24,027 nt of DNA from a virus, in IMG/VR virus record IMGVR_UViG_3300037427_000790, positions 1 through 24,027 of that record; one strand, 5' to 3'. Below are positions 967-24,027 of the stretch, in pieces (positions within the stretch are counted from its first letter, which is position 1; every line of letters starts with the position of its first letter). The notes under the pieces were generated by a model. That model did not search any database, had not been told where the DNA came from, and was given only the letters and a program-made list of their open reading frames with translations. The translations under genes were made by a program, and so were the position numbers.

Positions 967-1206
967 ATGAACGAAGTAAATCCAAGCGAAGGCGGTAGTT
1001 ATTCGCTTGACCCAGAAACAGGCGAACGCACTTTAATTAAGCGCACTTCTCCCTCTATCCCAAATCAGGTAAAAGAAAATGGCACTTCTGGAAAGGAAAC
1101 GAGTAATTCTTCTGGAACTGGAAAGCAGCTACGGAACAGATCCAACACCAACAGGAGCAGACGCAATACTAGTAAGCGATCTGTCGATAACTCCACAAGC
1201 GAGTGA
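967..1206 (+). CDS. Small conserved-type protein of the tail module, overlapping the tail tube gene
   Basis: The frame gives 79 residues. The first 37 precede the tail tube start and carry GGSYSLDPETGERTLIKR, a signature (GGSY..DP.TGE..L) that I associate with small proteins of unknown role placed just before the major tail protein in many siphovirus tail modules. The remaining 42 residues are read from DNA that also encodes the N-terminus of the tube protein at 1079. They are rich in Asn, Ser, Arg and Thr, as expected for an overprinted frame. The ATG overlaps the stop of a 9-codon mini-ORF (941-970) in an ATGA arrangement. The N-terminal part is probably a real gene. The function is unknown, and whether the overlapping part is present or conserved in other phages is open. 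Confidence 0.5.
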   Translation: MNEVNPSEGGSYSLDPETGERTLIKRTSPSIPNQVKENGTSGKETSNSSGTGKQLRNRSNTNRSRRNTSKRSVDNSTSE

Positions 1207-2014
1207 TGTTGTCTCAAGGGATTTAATACGTCCGTATCTTGGCTCTTCAAGGCAATTATTAGCTAACACAAGGGTTGAATGTGCGTTTAGCGTAGAACTT
1301 GCAGGATCGACAGCAGCAGGCACAGCACCAAGAGTTGGCAAAGCTTTAAGAGCATGTGGATTCAGTGAAACTGTTGCTGCCAATACAAGTGTTACTTATG
1401 CGCCTGTATCTGGATCGTTTGAGTCAGCAACTATTTATTACAACGTAGATGGTGTTTTACATAAGACCACAGGTTGTCGAGGAAGCTGGGCTTTAGAAGC
1501 TTCTGTAGGAGAAATTCCTAAATTGAATTTTTCTTTTCAAGGCATATATGTAGCTCCAGCAGACGTTGCTCTTCCTACGGTTAGTTATGGAAATCAAGCG
1601 ACACCATTAATTTTTAAAAATGGAAATACAACTGGATTCCAATTTTTGTCTTATAACGGTGCTTGTCAGTCTATTGAATTTGACGCTGGTGTAACGACCA
1701 CCTATATGGAATTAATTGGAGGAACAAAAGAAGTACACATTATTGATCGAAATTCTGCTGGTAGCGTCACTATTGAAGCCCCAACGATTGCACAAAAAGA
1801 TTATTTTGCTGCTGCTTTAAGTGATACGTCTTTAGGTAACTTAGCTTTTACTCATGGATCAGACGCTGGCAATATTGTTCAATTTACTTCAAGTAAGATT
1901 GACATAGGAGATGTGTCTTATGGAGAAGAAAATGGCATTGTAATGGCTGAAATTCCTATCACTGCATGTCCATCTACCAGTGGTAACGATGAGTTCTCTT
2001 TGATATATAGGTAA
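1079..2014 (+). CDS. Major tail tube protein
   Basis: This 311-residue protein has the hallmarks of siphovirus tail tube subunits. It has an N-terminal strand followed by SSYGTDPTPTGADAILV, a short segment seen at the start of many tube proteins. Next come beta-rich repeats with Gly/Ser turns, a central SWALEASVGEIPKLNFSFQG region, and a C-terminal domain of strands. Hexamers of the protein stack into the tube around the tape measure. The start is supported by AGGT eight bases upstream (1067-1070) and by an in-frame stop at 1070-1072. A terminator lies immediately after the stop, as expected for the most abundant tail protein. The 128-base overlap with the preceding small frame is unusual. 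Confidence 0.85.
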   Translation: MALLERKRVILLELESSYGTDPTPTGADAILVSDLSITPQASDVVSRDLIRPYLGSSRQLLANTRVECAFSVELAGSTAAGTAPRVGKALRACGFSETVAANTSVTYAPVSGSFESATIYYNVDGVLHKTTGCRGSWALEASVGEIPKLNFSFQGIYVAPADVALPTVSYGNQATPLIFKNGNTTGFQFLSYNGACQSIEFDAGVTTTYMELIGGTKEVHIIDRNSAGSVTIEAPTIAQKDYFAAALSDTSLGNLAFTHGSDAGNIVQFTSSKIDIGDVSYGEENGIVMAEIPITACPSTSGNDEFSLIYR

Positions 2015-2015
2015 A

Positions 2016-2039
2016 AGGGGGCTTACGCCCTCTCTTTTT
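2016..2039 (+). terminator. Rho-independent terminator after the tail tube gene
   Basis: AGGGGGC (2016-2022) pairs with GCCCTCT (2027-2033), giving 7 bp with one G-T wobble and a TTAC tetraloop, followed by CTTTTT (2034-2039). It starts two bases after the tube stop codon. It would keep the tube protein far more abundant than the chaperones and tape measure encoded downstream. Confidence 0.82.
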
Positions 2040-2076: not shown

Positions 2077-2409
2077 ATGAGTTTTGTAAGGAAGAAAATT
2101 TCTGCCTATCCTTGGCCTGTTGAAATAAAAAAACCTTCAGAAACAAAACCAGGAGAATTTGAAAGTTCTACTTTTATTATTAAATTTAAAAGATTAAAGA
2201 AGTCAGAACTTACAAAGTTTGAAGCTGAACAAGATTATGGTGCTTTAAAAAAAATTATTGTTGGATGGAGTCAAATTCAAGATGAAGAAGGAAAAGACAT
2301 TCCTTTTACTGAAAAAGAATTAAAAGCTTTTTCCGAAGACGTTGATTTTGTTGCTGGAGTGGTTCAAGCATTTGGTGATTTCTATAAAAATGCAAATGCA
2401 AAAAACTAA
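2077..2409 (+). CDS. Tail assembly chaperone, G-type (unshifted product)
   Basis: This 110-residue protein is charged and Lys/Glu-rich. It has a beta-type N-terminus (KKISAYPWPVEIKKP), a FIIKFKRLKKSEL segment typical of tail chaperones, and a helical C-terminal half (GVVQAFGDFYKNANAKN). In lambda-like tails the G product binds the tape measure and is absent from the finished virion. Its position between the tube and the tape measure matches. It ends at TAA 2407-2409, one codon after a canonical -1 slippery site, so it is the major product of a G/GT frameshift pair. The ATG has no Shine-Dalgarno sequence. It lies 62 bases after the tube stop, downstream of the terminator. Confidence 0.82.
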   Translation: MSFVRKKISAYPWPVEIKKPSETKPGEFESSTFIIKFKRLKKSELTKFEAEQDYGALKKIIVGWSQIQDEEGKDIPFTEKELKAFSEDVDFVAGVVQAFGDFYKNANAKN

Positions 2410-2759
2410 CTGATGCTGCTCTTTATTGGGTTTCGGGTGGCAGCGGATCAAATCAACAGGCAGATGAAGATGCCAAAATATTTGGCATAAAATTACCTGA
2501 GAAACCAGAAGTAGATACAGAAGAAAATGGTCAATGTCTTGTCTGGGAAGAGAATTGGGAAACAGTCTTAATGTTTTTAAGAATGCAAACTCAATGGTCT
2601 ATGTCTTTTGGTGGAGTTGTAGGTCTTAAATATGAGGTGTTGTTAAGTGCAGGAGGCTTATTTGACATATACAATGTAGAGAACAGACGAGAGATGTTTG
2701 AGGATTTAAAAATCATGGAATCTGCTGCTCTCACCGAAATGAATAAGAAGGGTTCTTGA
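2077..2759 (+). CDS. Tail assembly chaperone GT fusion made by -1 ribosomal frameshift
   Basis: Slippage at A AAA AAC (2400-2406) moves ribosomes from the G frame into the -1 frame. That frame is open from 2406 to TGA 2757-2759 and adds 117 residues, giving a product of about 227. The added T part starts LTDAALYWVSGGSG. It contains WEENWETVLMFLRMQTQW followed by a GLKYEVL segment, a pattern I recognise from T-type chaperone domains (DUF1799-like: W.EN...V..F....TQW....G...GL.Y). It ends with MFEDLKIMESAALTEMNKK. In lambda, GT recruits tube subunits through T to the tape measure bound by G. An internal ATG at 2571 would give only a 62-residue fragment that cuts the conserved part, so independent translation is unlikely. 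The tape measure gene starts two bases after the stop. Confidence 0.85.
2400..2406 (+). promoter_or_regulatory. -1 frameshift slippery heptamer A AAA AAC
   Basis: Read in the G frame, codons GCA AAA AAC place the heptamer A AAA AAC in the canonical X XXY YYZ register, allowing both tRNAs to re-pair one base back. The zero-frame stop TAA follows immediately (2407-2409). The -1 frame continues open for 117 codons with a T-type chaperone sequence. This is direct sequence evidence; slippage itself has not been measured. Confidence 0.88.
2415..2444 (+). promoter_or_regulatory. Possible stem-loop stimulating the G/GT frameshift
   Basis: GCTGC (2415-2419) is complementary to GCAGC (2440-2444), with G-T wobble pairs possible on both sides and a loop of about 20 bases. 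The stem begins 8 bases after the slippery heptamer, inside the spacer range typical for -1 stimulatory structures. The stem is short, so it may contribute little or only as part of a pseudoknot. Confidence 0.4.
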
Positions 2760-2760
2760 T

Positions 2761-5181
2761 ATGGCAAAAGTTGTTGAAGTTGTTTCTTTAAAACTTGATT
2801 TACAAGGCTTTGCACAGTTGCAAGGTTTAGGCAATAAATTTAAAAAATTAGAAAATCCAATTAAATTAACTGGGCAAGGTGTAACAAGATTAAAAAATGA
2901 AATTTTAGGTTTAGGAAAAGTAGTTCCTAATACTGTTGGTCATTTAAATAATCAAGCTGATGCTTTAAGAAGAGTTCGTCAAGATGTAGAGATTGGTACA
3001 CAAGAATTTAGAGAACTTACAACAGAAATTAACAGGGTAAATAATGCAATAACTAAAGCTAATGCTTCGATGAATAAAACGAAGTTTGGTCGTAAGGATA
3101 TGTTCCAAGGGTTAGGCACAGTTGCTGGTGCTACTGCGTTTGGTGGCCCTTTACCTGGAATAACTGGATTAATTGGTGGTGGAATAAGTAAACTTGCTGG
3201 CGAAGGATTTGCTGCTGGTACTCTTCCTGGTGTTGCAGCAGGTTTTGCATTAAAGCCTGCTGTTGAGGCAGTAAGTGGTGCAACTACATATGCAGCAGAT
3301 ATAAACAAATCAAAAATTGCTTTAGAAGGAGCAACCAAGATAGAAGGAGATCCAGCAGCTTCTATGGAGGCATATAAAGATGCATTAGCAACTGCTGCAA
3401 GAGTTACTAAAGAGTTCAATGTTCCTCAAGAGATAGCAATTAAAGGTATGACTCGGCTAAGTGCTGCGGTTATTGGTGCTGGAGGAAATGTACATAATGC
3501 TTCTTTGGCGTTTACAAGTGTAATTGCAGCTATTAAAGGTACAGCAGGTAGCTCGGAAGATGCAAAAGCAGCGATAACTGCCCTGGTTCAGATCTATTCA
3601 AAAGGCAAGGTATCAGCCGAAGAACTTTCTGGGCAACTCGGTGAACGCTTCCCTGCAGCCGTGACTAAGTTTGCAAAGGCAAATGATATGGAAGCTGCAA
3701 GTTTGCAGAAGATGTTGAAAGATGGAACGGTAGGTCTAGATATGCTTGAGAAATTTGTAATTTCTCTTGGTAAAGAATATATTCCAATTGCTAAAAAGAT
3801 TGCTCAGTCAAGTGAAGAAGCAGGCGCAAGAGCAAGAGTTGCGTTTAATGAATTACGAATATCTGTTGGTAAACAATTAATCCCTATTGGAGAACAATTC
3901 CAAGAAATTGGTATTCAAATTTTAACAACTATTTTGCCAGCAGTTGTAACTATTGCTCAGGCTATGCTTCCTGTTTTCAAAGCTATAGCTGACACAATTC
4001 AATTTGTAGTTGATAATTTCCATGTACTTGCTTCTGTTTTAGCTGTCGCTGGAGGTGTCGCTGCTGGCGTAGCCATACAAGTTAGTGGTTTAGGGGCTGC
4101 TTTAGCAGGATTGAATTTAGCAATAGTAGTGAAGCAAATAGGAGGACTGATTTTTGCTTTAAAGGCAATGACAATTGCTCAATACAAAGCAAATATTGCT
4201 GCTTTTGCTAATCCTTATGTTGCGTTAGCTGCTGGGCTTACTATTGCTACAATTGCTGCTTATAGGTTCGCTACAGCAAACGATAGATTAAAAGCAAAAT
4301 TATCATCTGGGGATGCAAGCGAAGAAGATGTAAATAAAGTATTTAAGAGAAGATTAGAAATTCAAAGACAAATTACGAAATTGGAAAATAATGATGATAG
4401 ACGAGGCAAAACAACAAGAGCAAATAAAATTGTAAAATTAAAAGAAGAATATGCCGAGTTAACTATTGCAATAGAAGAGTTTAGAAAAGCAGTAGAAGAT
4501 GGAGCTTCTGTAGAAGAGTTAATGAAAAAAGCCATGCAAATGCCTGGTATGGGAGGAGATGGAACAGGTAAATCACCGTTAGCAAAGTTTGCAGATGATT
4601 TAAAAGATTTCAAACCAGCCGTTGAAGACGCTGTGGTAGGTGCATTCGGAAAATTAGAAGATACGATTATGGATTTTGTTCAGACAGGAAAACTTGCCTT
4701 TGGAGATTTAGCTCGTTCAATTATTGCTGATATGGCAAGAATTGCGGTAAGAGCAGCAATTGTTAAACCTTTGATGAACTTTATGTTCCCAGGTCTTTTT
4801 GCAAAAGGAGCAGCATTTGCTGGTAACAATATTGTTCCTTATAGAAAAGGTGGAGTTGTAAATAGTCCAACAATGTTCAAATATGGTGGGTCACAATTAG
4901 GGATCATGGGGGAAGCTGGCCCAGAAGCCATAATGCCTCTCAAGAGAGGAAGAAGTGGGAAACTTGGAGTTGAAATGCATGGTCGTGGTGGAGGTGGAAC
5001 AACCAATGTCAATTACACAGGGCCAACATTGAACTTTAATGGTGATGAGTATGTACCTAAGTCTGCGGTAGGTAGCATTGTTAATGCTGCTGCAAATAAA
5101 GGTGCAAACATGGGTGAAACAGCAACAATGAGATCATTGCAAAATAGTCGTTCAGCTAGAGGGAGGATTGGAATTAGATGA
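2761..5181 (+). CDS. Tail tape measure protein
   Basis: The 806-residue protein sets tail length and lines the tube before injection. The N-terminal 110 residues are helical and coiled-coil-like. At about residues 195-345 there is a tape-measure domain including SKGKVSAEELSGQLGERFP and a KMLKDGTVGLDMLEKF stretch, typical of TIGR02675-like proteins. Residues 423-505 form a long hydrophobic region that could insert into the host membrane at injection. At 629-672 the run TIMDFVQTGKLAFGDLARS, continuing through IIADMARIAVRAA, matches the lambda gpH C-terminal domain. EAGPEAIMPLKRG near 718 is the conserved C-terminal motif, followed by a Gly-rich tail. By the usual 0.15 nm per residue, the tail would be about 120 nm. 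GAAGG-like purines precede the ATG, which follows the chaperone stop by one base. Confidence 0.95.
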   Translation: MAKVVEVVSLKLDLQGFAQLQGLGNKFKKLENPIKLTGQGVTRLKNEILGLGKVVPNTVGHLNNQADALRRVRQDVEIGTQEFRELTTEINRVNNAITKANASMNKTKFGRKDMFQGLGTVAGATAFGGPLPGITGLIGGGISKLAGEGFAAGTLPGVAAGFALKPAVEAVSGATTYAADINKSKIALEGATKIEGDPAASMEAYKDALATAARVTKEFNVPQEIAIKGMTRLSAAVIGAGGNVHNASLAFTSVIAAIKGTAGSSEDAKAAITALVQIYSKGKVSAEELSGQLGERFPAAVTKFAKANDMEAASLQKMLKDGTVGLDMLEKFVISLGKEYIPIAKKIAQSSEEAGARARVAFNELRISVGKQLIPIGEQFQEIGIQILTTILPAVVTIAQAMLPVFKAIADTIQFVVDNFHVLASVLAVAGGVAAGVAIQVSGLGAALAGLNLAIVVKQIGGLIFALKAMTIAQYKANIAAFANPYVALAAGLTIATIAAYRFATANDRLKAKLSSGDASEEDVNKVFKRRLEIQRQITKLENNDDRRGKTTRANKIVKLKEEYAELTIAIEEFRKAVEDGASVEELMKKAMQMPGMGGDGTGKSPLAKFADDLKDFKPAVEDAVVGAFGKLEDTIMDFVQTGKLAFGDLARSIIADMARIAVRAAIVKPLMNFMFPGLFAKGAAFAGNNIVPYRKGGVVNSPTMFKYGGSQLGIMGEAGPEAIMPLKRGRSGKLGVEMHGRGGGGTTNVNYTGPTLNFNGDEYVPKSAVGSIVNAAANKGANMGETATMRSLQNSRSARGRIGIR

Positions 5182-12144: not shown

Positions 12145-15100
12145 ATGGCTGACCTTCAAATAAGTCAACTGCCTCAATTACTTGAAGCAGATTTGGCAGG
12201 TGGGGATGAACTTGCAATTGTTGATGATAGTGCGTCAGAGACAAAACGAATTACAGCGAAAGCTTTAATTGAAAAAGGTGTTGCTTTAATTGATGCTGGT
12301 TCAATTCCTGGTACAGCATTAGCAAGTCTTGGGACAGGAACTGTAAATACAGCGGCTGTAGCTGATGACGCTATAACAGCAGCTAAAATTGTGGCAGGAG
12401 CAGTAGGCGCAAGTGAGATAGCTGATGGATCAATAACAGCTACAGAAATAGCAGCTAATACTATTACCGCAACACAGATAGGAACAAATGCAATAGGTGC
12501 TAGTGAACTAGCCGATAACGCTGTTGATACTGCTGCCATAGCTGATGCTGCTGTAACTGCTGTAAAAATTGCCGATGCAACTATTACCTATGCAAAATTA
12601 AACCTTAGTGATGGAGACATAGCAGGAGCAAAGATTGCAAATAATTCTCTTACTGCTGGACAAATAGCTGCTAATGCAATTGGAGCAAGTGAACTTGCCG
12701 ATGATGCTGTAGATACAAATGCTATTGCTAATGTAGCTGTTACAGGAAGCAAGATTGCAAGCAATGCAATCACAAATATCAAGATTACAGACGCAACAAT
12801 AACAGGAGCAAAATTAGTTAATGACACAATTACATCAACACAGATAGCTGCTAATGCAATTACAGCTTCTGAATTGGCAGATGATGCTGTAGATACTGCT
12901 GCAATTCTTGATGATGCTGTAACTTCGGGAAAACTTGCTGCTGGTGCTGTTGACACAACAGCTTTAGGTGCAGCGGCTGTAACTGGAGCAAAGATAGCTG
13001 GAACAACTATTACAGCAGCAAATATTGCCGCTGGAACTATTACGGCTACTGAACTTGCAGCCAATTCTGTTGGTGCTAGTGAGATTGCGGCTAATGCTGT
13101 TGGTGCTAGTGAGTTGGCTGACGATGCGGTTGATACTGCTGCAATAGTTAATGCAGCAGTTACCAATGCGAAGATTGCCGATGGAACTATTACTTATGCA
13201 AAATTAAATCTTTCAGACGGTGATATCCCTGCTGCCAAGATTGCCGCTGGAGCAATTGGTAATACTCAGATAGCAGCAAATGCTGTTGGGGCAACTGAAC
13301 TAGCAAATGACGCAGTTGATACCGCTGCAATTCAAAATTTAGCAGTAACTGGAGCAAAGATAGCTGCCACCACAATTACAGGAGCAAAAATAGCTGCAAC
13401 AACAATTGAAGCTGGAAATATAGCTGCTAATACAATTACAGCCTCAGAAATAGCAGCAAATGCAATAGGTGCTTCAGAGTTAGCAGACAATGCAGTTGAT
13501 ACAGCGGCGATAGTAGACGCAGCAGTTACTAACGACAAAATTGCAAATACAACGATTGCTTATGCAAAATTAAATTTATCAAATGGAGATATTGCTGGAG
13601 CAAAAATTGCTGATAATTCTCTTACAGCAACTCAAATAGCTGCTAACGCTATAGGTTCTAGTGAGCTAGCAAATAATGCAGTTGACACCAATGCCATTGC
13701 AGATGATGCCGTAACAGGAGCAAAAATTGCGGCGGCAACAATTGAAGGAGCAAATATTGTTACTGGCACTATTACTGCGACTCAACTAGCTGCTGATTCT
13801 GTAGGAGCAAGTGAAATTGCCGCAAACGCAGTAGGAGCTTCAGAACTTGCAGACGATGCGGTAGATACAGCAGCAATAGCAAACTTGGCAGTTACAGGAG
13901 CCAAGATTGCAAACGCAACCGTTACAGCGGCAAAGTTAAGTTTGTCTGCTGGAGATATTGATGGAACAAAAATTGCTAATGATTCACTTACAGCAACTCA
14001 AATTGCTGCAAATGCAATAACAGCTAGTGAGTTAGCTGATAACGCTGTAGATACCGCTGCTCTTGCTGCTAATTCCGTAACAGCAGCAAAGATTGCAGCT
14101 AATGCAGTTGGAGCTTCAGAACTAGCTGATGATGCTGTAGATACAGCAGCCGTAGCAAATGGAGCAATAACAACAGCAAAACTTGCTGATGGTGCTGTTA
14201 CAACAGCCAAGCTTTCAGGAACTATTGAAGCTGGAACTCTTGCTGATGGTGCTGTTACAACTGCGAAACTTGCAGACGATGCGGTTACAGCAGCCAAGCT
14301 TGGGGCAGGTGCAGTTGATACAACTGCTTTAGGAGCAACTTCTGTTACAACAGCAAAAATAGCTGCTGGTGCAGTTACTGATGCAAAAGTAGCAACTGGA
14401 ATTAGTGGAACGAAACTTACTGATGCAACAATTACTGCTGCAAAATTAAATACAGCAAATATAGATAGATCGCTAAACGTAGCGTCTGGAAACTTAGGAA
14501 TAAATAATGTTATTTCTGCTGGAACATCTGCTGGAATTAGCTATAACGCTCAGGGCTTAATAACCGCTACAACTGCACTAGTAGCAAGCGATTTGCCAGT
14601 TGCGACAACATCCGCTGTTGGTGGTGTTTCAATTGCTAGTGCTGGTGGATTATCAGTTACAGGAGCAGGTGCATTATCTATTGCAGCAACAACGACTGGA
14701 GCTACAGCGACAAAAGTCACTTTTAACAACTTTGGTCAAATAACAGCAACATCTACTCTTGCTGCTGCCGATCTGCCTGTTGCAACTGCTAGTGCTGTTG
14801 GTGCGGTTTCTGTTCCTACAGGAGGCCCACTTTCTGTTGATTCAAACGGTGCAATTACAGTTGTCGATTCAGGAGTAACGGCAGGGACAGGAATAAAAGT
14901 AACAGTTGACGCAAAAGGCCGAGTAACTAATCTTGCAACTCTTTCAGATAGTGATCTTCCTAACCATAGTGCAGCGTTATTAACTTCTGGAAGTATTCCA
15001 ACAGCAAGAATTGCTAATGATGCAATCACAGGAACCAAACTTGCAAATGCTTCAACAACGCTATTTGGCTCTGTAGGTCAGACCGGGTTCCCGACATCCG

Positions 15101-18100
15101 AGTTCACAGGGCAATTTTTCTTCGATTCAGTTTCTGAAGATTTATATATATATGATGGAAATGCTTATCAACCAATAACAACTTTAACAAAAGGTTCGCT
15201 GGTCTTTGGTGGTACTTTTAACGCTGGAACAAGTAAAGTTGCAAGTGTAACAACAGCAGGTGCAGCAGCAGGTTTAAGCGTTGGAAGTAATGTTCCAACT
15301 CCTACAAGTTCGACTGATGGTTTATATTTAGTAGTTGAAAATGCTGGAACCCCAAGTGCGCCAGCACCTGTAGTTGCACTTGCTCCACCAGATTACATTT
15401 TAGGTGTTACAAATACAGGTGGAAGTTCATGGGAAGAAATTGATTTATCACAGACTATTGCTGGGCAAGTTGCAAGCAATATTGTTTTCACTCCATATGG
15501 TCAAATTGGGGCAACTAATGTTCAAGATGCACTTCAAGAATTAGAAACAGAAAAACTAGCACTTACAGGTGGTACTGTCACGGGTCAAGTGCTATTTGGT
15601 CATACTGGATCGCTTGTTTTCGAGGGTGCAAGTGCTGACGCATATGAAACAACTTTAGGAGTAGTTGATCCAACTACAGCAGATAAAACAATACTTTTAC
15701 CTAATACTTCTGGAACTTTAATAACAAATAACGATTCTGGGACAGTGACTAGCTCAATGCTTGCTGATGGAACCATCGTTAATGCTGATATAAATGCTTC
15801 TGCTGCTATAGCCCTTACCAAGCTAGAAGGCATAACTGCTGCGAAAATAATTGTTGGTAATGGATCAGGCGTTGCTGCTCAAGTTTCTGTAACAGGTGAT
15901 ATATCAATATCTGATGCTGGGGTTGTTGCAATTACGGCTGCTTCCATTGTTAATGCTGATATTTCTAGCTCTGCTGCAATTACAGGTTCAAAGGTTACAA
16001 CTGGAACGACAAGTGCCGTTGGTGTTCTTCAATTAACAGATAGTGCCGCTTCCACTTCTGCTACTACGGCTGCAACTCCTGCTGCTGTAAAGATTGCGAA
16101 GGACGCTGCTGACGCTGCTGCTACAACAGCAAATGCGGCGTTGCCGAAAGCTGGCGGCACAATGACTGGCAATTTGATTCTGGATAATGCTTCGGAATTG
16201 CGTTTTACAGAAGCTGATTCAGATGGTGCAAATTACACAGCATTAAAAGCTCAGGCTCAGACTTCAGACATAACACTTACTCTTCCTGCTACAGCACCAA
16301 CTGCTAACCAGGTGCTTAAGGCTAATGCCAGCACACCTACCACTCTTGAATGGGCAACTGATACAACCAATACTGCTGCGGCAGATATAACTGGAACGAC
16401 TCTTGCTTCTAATGTTGTTGCAAGTTCTCTTACTTCAGTTGGGACTCTTACTTCTCTAACAGTTAGTGGAACAATAACTGGAGATGTAACTGGAGACTTA
16501 ACTGGTAACGCAGATACAGCAACAATATTGGCAACGGCAAGAACAATTGGTGGGGTTAGCTTTAATGGTTCAGCAAATATAGATTTACCAGGCGTTAATA
16601 CTGCTGGCAACCAAAACACAACAGGAAATGCAGCAACGGCAACAAAGTTTGCTTCTGCGGTCACAATTGGTGGTGTTAGTTTTGACGGTTCAGCAAATAT
16701 TGATCTTGCAGGTGTTAATACTGCTGGTACTCAAGACACGTCAGGTACAGCAGCACTCGCAACCCAGTTCACAGTCACAGCAAATAATGCAACAGATGAG
16801 ACTGTTTATCCGATTTTTGTAGATGCAGCTACTGGATCTCAAGGTGCTGAAACAGATTCTGCTTTAACTTACAACCCTTCAACTGGAGCTTTAACTACAA
16901 CAACCTTTATCGGAGCATTAACTGGAAATGTTACAGGGAATATTACTGGTAATACTTCTGGATCTTCTGGTTCATGTACTGGCAATGCTGCAACAGCAAC
17001 TGCTTTACAAACAGCAAGAACCATAGGGGGCGTTTCGTTTGACGGAACAGCAGCTATTGATCTTCCAGGTGTTAATGCAACTGGTAATCAAGACACCACA
17101 GGTAATGCTGCAACCTTTACGGCAACGGCTAATAATTCAACTGATGAAACTGTTTATCCTGTATTTATTGATGGAGCAACAGGAGCGCAGGGTGCAGAAA
17201 CAGATACAGGTTTTACTTATAATCCTTCTTCTGGAGCTTTAACTGCAACATCATTTGTAGGTGCGTTAACAGGTAACGCTTCTACAGCGACAGCACTTGC
17301 TACGGCTAGAACAATTGGAGGTGTTAGTTTCGATGGTACTGCTGATATAGCTTTACCAGGTGTTAATAGTGCAGGTAGTCAAAGTACTACTGGTAACGCT
17401 GCTACGGCAACAAAACTTGCTGCAACTGTAGATATAAACGGTGTTGCTTTTGATGGTTCTGCTGATATTACGGTTACTGCTGCTGCTGGAACATTAACTG
17501 GTGCGACTCTTGCTAGTGGAGTAACAGCATCAAGTTTGACTTCTGTTGGCACTCTTGGAAGTTTGGCAGTTAGTGGAAATGCAACTGTTGGTGGAAATGC
17601 AACTATTACTGGAAATCTAGTTGTAAATGGAACTACTACAACGGTTTCAAGTACTACCGTTGAAGTCGCTGATAAAAATATAGAACTTGGCAAGGTTTCA
17701 AGTCCTGATGATACAAGTGCAGATGGAGGAGGTATAACTTTACTTGGAGCTACAAATAAGACATGGAATTGGGTTAACGCTACTGACGCTTGGACATCTT
17801 CTGAGCATATTGCTTTACCAGATGACAAGAAAATATTATTTGGGGCTGGAACAGACTTAAGTATTTATTCAGATGGATCTGAGGGCATACTTGGGATTCC
17901 AGATGGAGGAACACTCAAGATTAAAGATGGTAGTAATACAATGGCTACTTTCTCAGGAGCCAGTAATCAATTAGATATTGGGGTTCATACTGTTTTCATT
18001 GGTGCTTCAAGCAACGCCGCTTGGGACAAAGCAAATAATAGATTTAGCGGAACAATTACAGAGATAAATGTTACTGCTAATAATTCAACAGATGAGACTT

Positions 18101-18654
18101 GCTATCCATTATTTGCTGACGGTGCAACAGGTAGCCAAGGGGCTGAATCAGATACAGGTTTAACTTATAACCCTTCTAGTGGATTGTTAACCAGTACTGG
18201 TTTTGCAGGGGCATTGACTGGAAACGTCACAGGTAATGTTTCTGGATCAGCAGCGACAGTAACGACTGCGGCTCAAACGGCAATTACTTCTGTTGGCACG
18301 TTAACTGGGCTGACTGTAAGTGGAAATATTTCAATGACAGGCACAGGAGCAATTGATGTTGCTGCTGGTACAACTGCACAAAGGCCAGGTTCTGCTTCGG
18401 CTGGAATGTTTAGATATAACTCAACAACTACCAAGTTTGAAGGATATACAACAGGTTGGGGTGCAATTGGTGGTGGGGCTGGAGCGACTGGTGGTGGCTC
18501 TGATGAAGTATTTGTAGAGAACGATCAAACAATTACGACTAATTACACAATAGGTAATGGATCTGCAAAAAATGCTAGCTCAGTTGGCGATTTAGCTATA
18601 AACTCAGGAGTAACGGTTACAGTACCAGCAAATGCTCGCTGGGTAATTCTCTAA
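12145..18654 (+). CDS. Giant repeat-built tail fibre protein
   Basis: This 2,169-residue protein is very poor in aromatic and basic residues and rich in Ala, Thr, Gly, Ile and Asp. Residues 1-65 (ADLQISQLPQLLEADLAGGD onward) are a non-repeat attachment domain typical of fibres in marine phages. Residues 71-770 are about 70 decapeptide units (consensus AANAIGASEL / ADDAVDTAAI). A middle region carries TGQFFFDSVSEDLYIYDG near 990 and PKAGGTMTGNL near 1333. From about 1467 there are modules of TIGGVSFDGSANIDLPGVN and VTANNSTDETVYP. The end (2076-2169) reads TTAQRPGSASAGMFRYN and closes with a beta-rich tip (VTVPANARWVIL). No C-terminal chaperone domain or collagen region is seen. ATG has only a weak purine run before it. 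Confidence 0.88.
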   Translation: MADLQISQLPQLLEADLAGGDELAIVDDSASETKRITAKALIEKGVALIDAGSIPGTALASLGTGTVNTAAVADDAITAAKIVAGAVGASEIADGSITATEIAANTITATQIGTNAIGASELADNAVDTAAIADAAVTAVKIADATITYAKLNLSDGDIAGAKIANNSLTAGQIAANAIGASELADDAVDTNAIANVAVTGSKIASNAITNIKITDATITGAKLVNDTITSTQIAANAITASELADDAVDTAAILDDAVTSGKLAAGAVDTTALGAAAVTGAKIAGTTITAANIAAGTITATELAANSVGASEIAANAVGASELADDAVDTAAIVNAAVTNAKIADGTITYAKLNLSDGDIPAAKIAAGAIGNTQIAANAVGATELANDAVDTAAIQNLAVTGAKIAATTITGAKIAATTIEAGNIAANTITASEIAANAIGASELADNAVDTAAIVDAAVTNDKIANTTIAYAKLNLSNGDIAGAKIADNSLTATQIAANAIGSSELANNAVDTNAIADDAVTGAKIAAATIEGANIVTGTITATQLAADSVGASEIAANAVGASELADDAVDTAAIANLAVTGAKIANATVTAAKLSLSAGDIDGTKIANDSLTATQIAANAITASELADNAVDTAALAANSVTAAKIAANAVGASELADDAVDTAAVANGAITTAKLADGAVTTAKLSGTIEAGTLADGAVTTAKLADDAVTAAKLGAGAVDTTALGATSVTTAKIAAGAVTDAKVATGISGTKLTDATITAAKLNTANIDRSLNVASGNLGINNVISAGTSAGISYNAQGLITATTALVASDLPVATTSAVGGVSIASAGGLSVTGAGALSIAATTTGATATKVTFNNFGQITATSTLAAADLPVATASAVGAVSVPTGGPLSVDSNGAITVVDSGVTAGTGIKVTVDAKGRVTNLATLSDSDLPNHSAALLTSGSIPTARIANDAITGTKLANASTTLFGSVGQTGFPTSEFTGQFFFDSVSEDLYIYDGNAYQPITTLTKGSLVFGGTFNAGTSKVASVTTAGAAAGLSVGSNVPTPTSSTDGLYLVVENAGTPSAPAPVVALAPPDYILGVTNTGGSSWEEIDLSQTIAGQVASNIVFTPYGQIGATNVQDALQELETEKLALTGGTVTGQVLFGHTGSLVFEGASADAYETTLGVVDPTTADKTILLPNTSGTLITNNDSGTVTSSMLADGTIVNADINASAAIALTKLEGITAAKIIVGNGSGVAAQVSVTGDISISDAGVVAITAASIVNADISSSAAITGSKVTTGTTSAVGVLQLTDSAASTSATTAATPAAVKIAKDAADAAATTANAALPKAGGTMTGNLILDNASELRFTEADSDGANYTALKAQAQTSDITLTLPATAPTANQVLKANASTPTTLEWATDTTNTAAADITGTTLASNVVASSLTSVGTLTSLTVSGTITGDVTGDLTGNADTATILATARTIGGVSFNGSANIDLPGVNTAGNQNTTGNAATATKFASAVTIGGVSFDGSANIDLAGVNTAGTQDTSGTAALATQFTVTANNATDETVYPIFVDAATGSQGAETDSALTYNPSTGALTTTTFIGALTGNVTGNITGNTSGSSGSCTGNAATATALQTARTIGGVSFDGTAAIDLPGVNATGNQDTTGNAATFTATANNSTDETVYPVFIDGATGAQGAETDTGFTYNPSSGALTATSFVGALTGNASTATALATARTIGGVSFDGTADIALPGVNSAGSQSTTGNAATATKLAATVDINGVAFDGSADITVTAAAGTLTGATLASGVTASSLTSVGTLGSLAVSGNATVGGNATITGNLVVNGTTTTVSSTTVEVADKNIELGKVSSPDDTSADGGGITLLGATNKTWNWVNATDAWTSSEHIALPDDKKILFGAGTDLSIYSDGSEGILGIPDGGTLKIKDGSNTMATFSGASNQLDIGVHTVFIGASSNAAWDKANNRFSGTITEINVTANNSTDETCYPLFADGATGSQGAESDTGLTYNPSSGLLTSTGFAGALTGNVTGNVSGSAATVTTAAQTAITSVGTLTGLTVSGNISMTGTGAIDVAAGTTAQRPGSASAGMFRYNSTTTKFEGYTTGWGAIGGGAGATGGGSDEVFVENDQTITTNYTIGNGSAKNASSVGDLAINSGVTVTVPANARWVIL
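12355..14454 (+). repeat. Decapeptide (30-bp) tandem array in the fibre gene, about 70 units
   Basis: Residues 71-770 read in strict 10-residue register, for example ADNAVDTAAI, ADAAVTAVKI, ADATITYAKL. Ile, Val or Leu recurs at every fifth position. The register slips by two in four 12-residue units of type NLSDGDIAGAKI (residues 153-164, 355-366, 477-488, 599-610) and by one in 9-residue units near 691 and 751. The four long units recur at about 122-202-residue spacing, implying a higher-order superrepeat. The regularity suggests a solenoid-like shaft. Confidence 0.9.
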
Positions 18655-21033: not shown

Positions 21034-21510
21034 ATGGCTCACAATTACAATCTACTAATTAAATTTGATTCCAATAATCAGCCAGTAGGACTTCCTATGG
21101 CTGAACAAAATGTAATTTATTTATTTCCTGATCACGATTGGACAAAAGGTTATCCTGCTGGTTATGCAAAACTTGTAAGAACTGACCCTAATTTAGGTAC
21201 TTATGAGAAATTAGATCCTGCTTATAATTTTCAAGGTTTAGATGGACATGAATGTGTATTAGTAGAACCATCAGGAGAAGGTGATGAACTGCCTTATTTC
21301 ACTTCTAAATGGCATATTATTCCAATGACAGATGAAGAGAAAAAGGCTTATCAAGATAGAGTTAAAGCAGATTGGGCAGGAGGCCCGAATTACGCATCAT
21401 GGACATTTAATGAATCAAAATGTAACTATGATCCTCCTAAACCGTATCCTATAGATGGACAAAATTATCTTTGGGATGAAGATACAACATCATGGAAATT
21501 AAGTGAGTGA
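21034..21510 (+). CDS. Conserved-type small protein with YLWDE motif, fibre cluster
   Basis: This 158-residue acidic protein carries KFDSNNQPVGLPMAEQN near the start, a DELPYFTSKWHIIPMTDEEK segment and the C-terminal pattern W.F.E....Y.PP.P.P.DG..YLWDE....W (residues 126-155). The pattern is common in proteins located beside fibre genes in marine phages, where fibre assembly or a decorating role is sometimes suggested. No catalytic motif is visible. It starts two bases after the glycine-rich gene and overlaps the next gene by eight bases, so it belongs to the same operon. The function is unknown. Confidence 0.6.
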   Translation: MAHNYNLLIKFDSNNQPVGLPMAEQNVIYLFPDHDWTKGYPAGYAKLVRTDPNLGTYEKLDPAYNFQGLDGHECVLVEPSGEGDELPYFTSKWHIIPMTDEEKKAYQDRVKADWAGGPNYASWTFNESKCNYDPPKPYPIDGQNYLWDEDTTSWKLSE

Positions 21511-22078
21511 TTTTCTAGTAAAAGGTTTTGAAGTTGTAGAAGATATTATTTCTTCAGAGAAATTATTATTATTAAAAGAACGTATTAGCTATTTAGACAA
21601 AACAAATTCTTTTAGTCGAAAAGATGAATTAGTTCCAAATGCTAAACATATTTATGGAGATATAGTTTTTGATAATTTACTTCTTGATATTAAATCTGTA
21701 GTAGAAAAGATTACTAATAAGAAATTAATTGAACAATATTCTTATTTAAGATTATATTCCCCTGGAGATGTTATGTATAAACATAAAGATAGAAATAGTT
21801 GTGAATATTCTGTTAGTTTATGTATAGATTCAAATTTAATCACATTATATCCATTAATGGTTGAGGATAAAAATAAACAGATTAATGCTGTATGTTTAGA
21901 ACCTGGTTCGGCGGTTGTTTATGCTGGAACAGAATTAGTGCATTGGCGTGATATGTTTTTAGGTAAATATTTAGCACAAGTTTTTTTGCATTATGTAGAT
22001 GCTGATGGCCCTTATAAAGATCAAAAGTATGATGGTAGAAAAGCTCTTGGAAAAAGTTTTACTACAAAATGTCTTTAG
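21503..22078 (+). CDS. 2-oxoglutarate/Fe(II) oxygenase-like protein, first of three
   Basis: This 191-residue protein starts at GTG 21503 in an eight-base overlap with the previous gene. It has the double-stranded beta-helix signature of 2OG/Fe(II) oxygenases: His94-Lys-Asp96 in YKHKDRNSCEYS, and a distal His147 in GTELVHWRD, followed by QVFLHYVDADG. The R.NSCE.S and HWR motifs recall oxygenases from marine phages. The basic residue usually found about ten positions after the distal His, which holds the oxoglutarate, is not obvious (Gln159). The iron site looks intact but co-substrate binding may be altered. The substrate is unknown. Fibre genes directly upstream suggest that tail proteins are one possible target. 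The region is more AT-rich than the fibre genes. Confidence 0.75.
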   Translation: MSDFLVKGFEVVEDIISSEKLLLLKERISYLDKTNSFSRKDELVPNAKHIYGDIVFDNLLLDIKSVVEKITNKKLIEQYSYLRLYSPGDVMYKHKDRNSCEYSVSLCIDSNLITLYPLMVEDKNKQINAVCLEPGSAVVYAGTELVHWRDMFLGKYLAQVFLHYVDADGPYKDQKYDGRKALGKSFTTKCL

Positions 22079-23016: not shown

Positions 23017-23574
23017 ATGATCCAATTTAAATCCTTTAACGGCCTAACTTCTTTAGTGTTAGGTGGAGGGCTTATTGCCACCAATTTTATGAGTTTAAAT
23101 TTATTAGCTCGTAAGGACTCAAGCATCCCAGACATAGCAAAGCTAAGTTCAACACCTTACAGTTCAATTCAAATCAGGAGTGAGACAAAATCTGATGGTG
23201 CAGAGGAGTGGATGTTTCACTCGAAACAACATGATCCAAAGCTAGTAACTACCATCATAGATGACGAAAAGCCTACGTTCTCTGGTGGCGTGAAGAAGAA
23301 ATATGTTCATAAACAAGACGTAGCTCAATTTGCAATCTATCCGAAAGGACAGGACGGAAAACTTTCAGCAGATCAGATTGCCTGTATTGAAAAAATGGCT
23401 CAAGGAAAATCGAATGGCATGATGATTGCTGACGCTGCTTCAGTTCAAGTGACACCAGCTATAGCAAGCGTTCCCATCGTTGGCCCGGTATTGGCAGGCA
23501 TTTTCTTTGGTCAAGCTAGAAAACAAGTAGGAAGTGCAGCAAGTGATCTTGCTGGGCAATGGAATGATTGCTGA
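23017..23574 (+). CDS. Membrane-associated protein of unknown function
   Basis: This 185-residue protein has an N-terminal hydrophobic segment (residues 10-30, SLVLGGGLIATNFMSLNLLA), which may be a signal anchor. A polar middle follows with YSSIQIRSETKSDGAEEWM. Near the C-terminus is a Gly/Ala/Pro-rich hydrophobic stretch (SVPIVGPVLAGIFFGQ) that resembles a glycine zipper, before a polar AASDLAGQWNDC tail. Both hydrophobic segments suggest insertion in the envelope or in the virion. It lies in the small-gene cluster and ends in a TGATG overlap with the third oxygenase gene. Similar layouts occur in cyanophage proteins as far as I recall, without a known role. Confidence 0.65.
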   Translation: MIQFKSFNGLTSLVLGGGLIATNFMSLNLLARKDSSIPDIAKLSSTPYSSIQIRSETKSDGAEEWMFHSKQHDPKLVTTIIDDEKPTFSGGVKKKYVHKQDVAQFAIYPKGQDGKLSADQIACIEKMAQGKSNGMMIADAASVQVTPAIASVPIVGPVLAGIFFGQARKQVGSAASDLAGQWNDC

Positions 23575-24027
23575 TGTATTTATCAAATTATATATATTTA
23601 GCTAATTTTTTTACAGCAGATGAATGTAATCAAATTATTAATACTAATGCTGACAATTTTGAGGAAGGTACAGTAAATGGAAATGATACATTAGAAGGTC
23701 AAAAAGCTGTATTAAAATTAAGAAACTCAAAGGTAAAATTTTTAACTTTGGATAGTCCTTGTGGTTATTTATTAAAAAAAATGGCAGATAGGGTTAAAGA
23801 TCTTGCGGAAAGATATTATCAAACTTATTTATCAAGTTTTGAAGCTATTCAATTAGCAGAATATAATAAAAATAATTTTTATAATTGGCATACTGATGCT
23901 ACTGGTGCTATTGATAGTTATATACAAAGAGATATTTCAGCGTCTTTAATTCTTAGTAAAAAATCAGATTATACTGGTGGTTCTTTACAATTTATTGTTC
24001 CAGAAAAAATATCAGATAGTAACATTA
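23574..24027 (+). CDS. 2-oxoglutarate/Fe(II) oxygenase-like protein, third of three, cut by window end
   Basis: An open frame runs from ATG 23574 (one base shared with the upstream stop, TGATG) to the right edge, giving 151 residues without a stop. Residues 101-108 read NFYNWHTD, the His106-x-Asp108 iron-binding pair. RDISASLILSKKSDYTGG followed by SLQF is the conserved strand after it in prolyl-4-hydroxylase / PKHD-type oxygenases. The distal His and the oxoglutarate-binding Arg should lie beyond the window. It differs clearly from both other oxygenases in this window and is closer to the PKHD branch. It may share the promoter at 22574. Confidence 0.82.
   Translation, partial: MYLSNYIYLANFFTADECNQIINTNADNFEEGTVNGNDTLEGQKAVLKLRNSKVKFLTLDSPCGYLLKKMADRVKDLAERYYQTYLSSFEAIQLAEYNKNNFYNWHTDATGAIDSYIQRDISASLILSKKSDYTGGSLQFIVPEKISDSNI

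Follow-up and report, generated by a model that had tools for sequence, protein, structure and literature searches.

How are two overlapping reading frames, the second of them open at its beginning but devoid of a start codon there, expressed between the tail tube and tape measure genes of a virus? The stretch of DNA analysed here (the window) comprises positions 1 to 24,027 of the 24,027-base virus record IMGVR_UViG_3300037427_000790, and its left part encodes a siphovirus head-tail module. Two overlapping frames, G and T, are flanked there by the genes for the tail tube and the tape measure protein, as in G/GT genes (Table 1). We conclude, with a probability of roughly 95%, that they are siphovirus tail-assembly-chaperone genes, belonging to a tail module like those of the Synechococcus phages S-CBS1 and S-LBS1 and expressed by programmed -1 ribosomal frameshifting. 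The slip site, the frames, their conservation, the constraint at the nucleotide level and the gene context were observed here, whereas the slippage itself, its rate and the roles of the products in assembly are inferred. While the G/GT frameshift mechanism is well known in phages, this G/T pair is newly described.

Table 1. Features of the tail module in the window, with coordinates counted from its first base.
Feature	Position	Strand	Evidence or remark
Head-tail attachment gene	222-500
Tail terminator gene	507-935
Tail tube (major tail) protein gene	1079-2014	+	PF18906 Phage_tube_2, E=2e-20
Terminator-like hairpin and T-run in the gap between the tail tube gene and G	2016-2038	+	sequence scan
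G gene, zero-frame tail assembly chaperone, 110 aa	2077-2409	+	ORF, ATG at 2077
Slippery heptamer A AAA AAC	2400-2406	+	in register
Zero-frame stop TAA, adjoining the heptamer	2407-2409	+
T frame (-1), 117 aa, DUF1799 domain	2406-2759	+	stop TGA 2757-2759
Possible stimulatory stem-loop	2410-2446	+	main helix 2414-2421 with 2435-2442
Tape measure protein gene	2761-5181	+	PF09718, E=2e-18; PF20155, E=7.5e-15

The G and T frames and their resemblance to lambda

The heptamer AAAAAAC forms the last two sense codons of G, read ...GCA AAA AAC TAA, so that A AAA AAC stands in register directly before the zero-frame stop, as the initial annotation had described. The -1 frame stays open between 2388 and 2759 and contains no ATG, GTG or TTG ahead of 2571; after a slip it would be read from the C at 2406, giving the junction ...NAKN-LTDA.... 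The earlier claims of a 117-codon open frame with a DUF1799-like motif, and of a T part without a good start that ordinary gene calling would reduce to a 62-codon tail, were both borne out. Mechanical ORF calling yielded just the 62-aa tail of T (2571-2759), and the complete T frame matched DUF1799 (PF08809, E=1.1e-14, 54.9 bits against a gathering cut-off of 26) as well as phrog_680 (E=1e-22). DUF1799 was matched by 41/41 aligned T proteins at E<=0.001, and the T frame was under purifying selection (dN/dS 0.10-0.28).

The G protein of the window matched only two PHROGs, phrog_569 (E=5e-7) and phrog_313 'Tail assembly chaperone' (E=5e-4), and gave no match to the Phage_TAC_4 chaperone family of Pfam at E<=0.01. 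Among 36 aligned G proteins, phrog_569 was matched by all, phrog_313 by 14 and PF08748 Phage_TAC_4 by 19, the last of which, like the gene order, fits a lambda-type G/GT pair. AlphaFold models were fair for T (pLDDT 82) and poor for G (67), and fold searches of both against the PDB returned nothing significant; structure thus adds nothing on function. Positions 62-106 of a T-family profile also weakly resembled ribosomal protein bL20, in the C-terminal half of that protein (best E=0.003). This likeness gained no support from structure comparison by fold search and is probably due to chance.

In the proposed mechanism, most ribosomes would end at the zero-frame TAA and release gpG (110 aa), while a minority would slip one base back on A AAA AAC, where the tRNAs reading AAA-AAC would re-pair as AAA-AAA, and would continue through CTA ACT GAT to produce gpGT (227 aa). 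Lambda G/GT is the source of the analogy for the roles of these products in assembly (PMC5009743). By that analogy, gpG and the G part of gpGT would bind and coat the tape measure protein, the expected client of gpG, and the T part of gpGT would recruit tail tube subunits, so that the tail tube protein (55% identical to that of S-CBS1) is the expected recruit of the T domain; gpG and gpGT would both depart before the tail is complete. In E. coli, A AAA AAC is reported to be much less prone to shifting than A AAA AAG (PMC5009743). A low shift rate would suit gpGT as a minority product, with the proviso that the rate in E. coli may not be that in the host.

The initial annotation had stated that the locus reproduces the lambda G/GT system, which holds for the type of mechanism and for the gene order of tail tube, G, T and tape measure, but not for the layout, as the site in the window abuts the stop codon. 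The lambda slip site is G GGA AAG, whereas the window has the heptamer A AAA AAC, a stop directly after it and a T domain of the DUF1799 family. Common to both are a short chaperone gene between the tail tube and tape measure genes and the fusion of T by slippage into the -1 frame at an X XXY YYZ site close to the end of G (PMC5009743).

Conservation of the slip site across relatives

Two scans of viral contigs yielded 149 loci with a readable G, the window counted in. A T profile built from 13 diverse proteins proved too divergent for scanning the collection, and single proteins were used instead. Every one of the 82 distinct junction contexts carried AAAAAAC or GGGAAAC as the last two codons before the stop, with T in the -1 frame. 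When whole distinct G-T DNAs were counted, the window and S-CBS1 included, the same held for 109/109, with AAAAAAC in 46 and GGGAAAC in 63, and the adjoining zero-frame stop was TAA in 103, TGA in five and TAG in one. These 109 sequences are kin rather than independent trials, and the real evidence lies in the several clades and the two heptamers. The heptamer and the -1 frame were likewise kept in the cultured cyanosiphoviruses S-CBS1, S-LBS1 and S-CBS3, and no relative within this G-T family had a T gene of its own while lacking a slippery site; the comparison with homologous phages, suggested at the outset as a check, supports the G/GT interpretation. Across the window and the loci, 133 of 1179 distinct ORF 3' ends bore a stop-adjacent X XXY YYZ heptamer and all 133 belonged to a G followed by a T-type -1 frame, while the heptamer was absent from the remaining 1046.

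Frame breaks at A-runs are a typical sequencing error, and a single G-T gene could in principle have been split into two frames by faulty sequencing or assembly, or by decay. The same break, however, was shared by 109 distinct sequences, drawn from many metagenomes, and by complete genomes of cultured phages, and more than half of the 109 carried the other heptamer; these independent copies already refute an artefact or a decayed gene, the probability of which is negligible.

Synonymous identity among relatives at codons -2, -1 and 0 was 1.00, 1.00 and 0.92, compared to 0.38, 0.53 and 0.21 expected from codon usage. The asparagine of the slip site was always encoded by AAC, although AAT was 2.5 times commoner elsewhere in these genes, and the codon ahead of the slip codons ended in A before AAA and in G before GGA without exception in the 109 sequences. 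Judged from these alignments, the constraint is one on the nucleotides of the slip site, beyond the amino acids alone.

That AAAAAAC and GGGAAAC alternate at a single position bears on a further possibility, namely that RNA polymerase slips on the A6 run and generates mRNAs of altered length from which GT is made by normal translation. AAAAAA is a homopolymer run on which RNA polymerases can slip, but a run of six is short for efficient slippage, and GGGAAAC, which contains no run longer than three, occupied the same place in 63/109 relatives. The alternation argues against transcriptional slippage, which we consider very improbable; it is rather the trace that selection for tandem -1 re-pairing would be expected to leave in sequence.

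We give equally little credence to an independent T gene whose translation would begin by re-initiation or at an internal start such as the ATG at 2571. That codon would yield the 62-aa tail, and S-CBS1 and S-LBS1 are annotated in this way in their database entries. Against a separate gene, T homology in the relatives reached back to the first codon past the slip, the earliest potential start codon of the T frame varied among them from -21 to +64 codons, and the nucleotide constraint at the heptamer would be left unexplained. In one clade (e.g. L099), a Shine-Dalgarno-like AGGAGG preceding GGGAAAC was considered and rejected, as the heptamer itself dictates GAG GGA, and slip site and motif overlap.

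Programmed frameshifting at the heptamer is also indicated by ten cultured phages with a DUF1799 T that carried the same signal, with AAAGGGT in Klebsiella KLB22 in addition. The closest cultured relatives of the module in the window are the tail modules of S-CBS1 (AGA AAA AAC TGA), S-LBS1 (GCA AAA AAC TGA) and S-CBS3 (GCA AAA AAC TGA). Like the window, these have AAAAAAC adjoining the stop, here TGA, T at -1 and a downstream hairpin, though their T proteins are just ~35% identical to that of the window. Their public records list G and T as two genes with T truncated, and the paper describing S-LBS1 (PMC6157547) does not mention a frameshift. Both gene callers and the records of these three phages thus miss or truncate the T domain. 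In the S-LBS1 record (L151, MG271909.1, 2624-3345), G carries the label of an ABC transporter ATPase (FepC), an antisense ORF has been placed inside T, and only 47 codons of T remain; these are likely misannotations.

More distant DUF1799 phages with the signal were Stenotrophomonas Silvanus, Rhodobacter RC1 and RcWaterboi, Thiobacimonas P1, Pseudomonas SYP, Vibrio ZX4290 and Escherichia JLBYU09. T1-like and related phages whose DUF1799 protein is named 'tape measure chaperone frameshift product', such as Silvanus, share the T family of the window, although their T proteins are only ~30-36% identical and their hosts differ. As in the window, Silvanus has A AAA AAC directly before the stop and a hairpin downstream, and its gene is annotated as a joined frameshift gene. 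Among the papers in the library searched, none joined DUF1799 and a frameshift. Taken together, these results extend a well-known way of controlling translation to aquatic siphoviruses of a widespread and mostly uncultured group.

The possible downstream stem-loop and the adjoining stop codon

The initial annotation had also noted a possible stem-loop 8 bases downstream of the slip site. A stem is present roughly so, its main helix beginning 7 nt past the heptamer, but the window alone did not distinguish it from synonymous recodings (z=-0.5, p=0.32) and support came from the relatives. No clear signal emerged when the 60 nt downstream were folded and compared with dinucleotide shuffles (mean z -0.6, with similar values at two of four other offsets), and a synonymous-codon null was therefore adopted. 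Under this null, mean z was -2.1 to -2.9 in several clades and weak or absent in others. In 54 distinct ungapped relatives, 83.6% of cells paired in the register of the stem compared to 27-55% in other registers, and covariation was above 500/500 shuffles, with the caveat that Ala-Ala and Gly-Gly codons at this place favour pairing by themselves. At the equivalent position, several distant relatives carried long hairpins whose sequences were unrelated. Given the register and covariation in relatives on the one hand and the p value of the window on the other, the stem-loop is a probable feature of the G-T group, unproven for the window sequence.

A broader survey covered 86 distinct DUF1799 loci; the heptamer stood directly before the stop in 68, and likewise in a further four that were cut by contig ends. 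Exceptions were five loci with the stop one codon later, one with the stop 56 codons later (L216), one with CAAAAAC before the stop (L246) and one fragment without the junction. As a further exception, part of the Drexlerviridae-like set, namely L256-L264, had no X XXY YYZ heptamer and read GCA AAA GTY TAA, with T still at -1 from the same place; these phages possibly use a different, single-tRNA slip. The stop-adjacent heptamer recurred across DUF1799 phages of proteobacteria. A stop-adjacent case has been published for gp18/gp19 of Burkholderia phage KL1, where GGGAAAC lies directly upstream of a TGA stop and a stem-loop is predicted, while KL1 differs from the window in an extra gene ahead of the tape measure gene (PMC3483164). 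Common in DUF1799 loci and already published for KL1, stop adjacency is therefore characteristic of the DUF1799 class but not new.

The position of the stop allows a variant of the same system, compatible with the frameshift itself, in which the shift would take place with the stop in the A site (AAC in the P site, AAA in the E site) and in competition with the release factor, rather than with AAA-AAC in the P and A sites. The heptamer touches the stop in 109/109 members and in most of the wider DUF1799 loci, compared to a mean distance of 26 nt from site to stop in SEA-PHAGES frameshift genes (PMC10885494). Set against this are the loci with the stop one codon or 56 codons later, and the adjacency may be merely inherited or serve to keep gpG short. 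We regard such stop-assisted slippage as rather unlikely. It is similarly doubtful that DUF1799-type G/GT constitutes a class of its own in which the stop following the heptamer functions as part of the signal, pitting termination against E/P-site slippage, and has been conserved from marine cyanosiphovirus relatives to proteobacterial phages. AAAAAAC and GGGAAAC occur side by side in nature, in every case in contact with the stop, and supply ready variants for tests of the role of the stop in bacterial -1 frameshifting.

Terminator-like hairpins and other genes of the window

The terminator-like hairpin at 2016-2038 had counterparts ~60 bases ahead of G in 64 out of 87 distinct upstream regions, compared to two of 2385 control windows, and the stem sequences differed strongly by clade. 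A second terminator-like hairpin with a T-run lies at 189-214 in the window, just before the head-tail attachment gene, and most loci that reach that far had one ~1.9-2.2 kb upstream of G. The recurrence of both hairpins suggests a stepwise lowering of transcription past the high-copy structural genes. If transcription partly ended after the tube gene, less G/GT would be made relative to the tube protein, and dosage control is a possible role for the hairpin at 2016-2038.

Elsewhere in the window, the gene at 21503-22078 matched a PHROG family (E=5e-46) that bears the possibly erroneous label ferrochelatase, and the gene at 23568-24026 resembled 2OG-Fe(II) oxygenases (PF13640, slightly under the cut-off). 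A 2169-aa open frame at 12145-18654 contained repeats of short motifs (GASELADDAVDTAAI and similar) and is apparently a tail fibre with many degenerate repeats.
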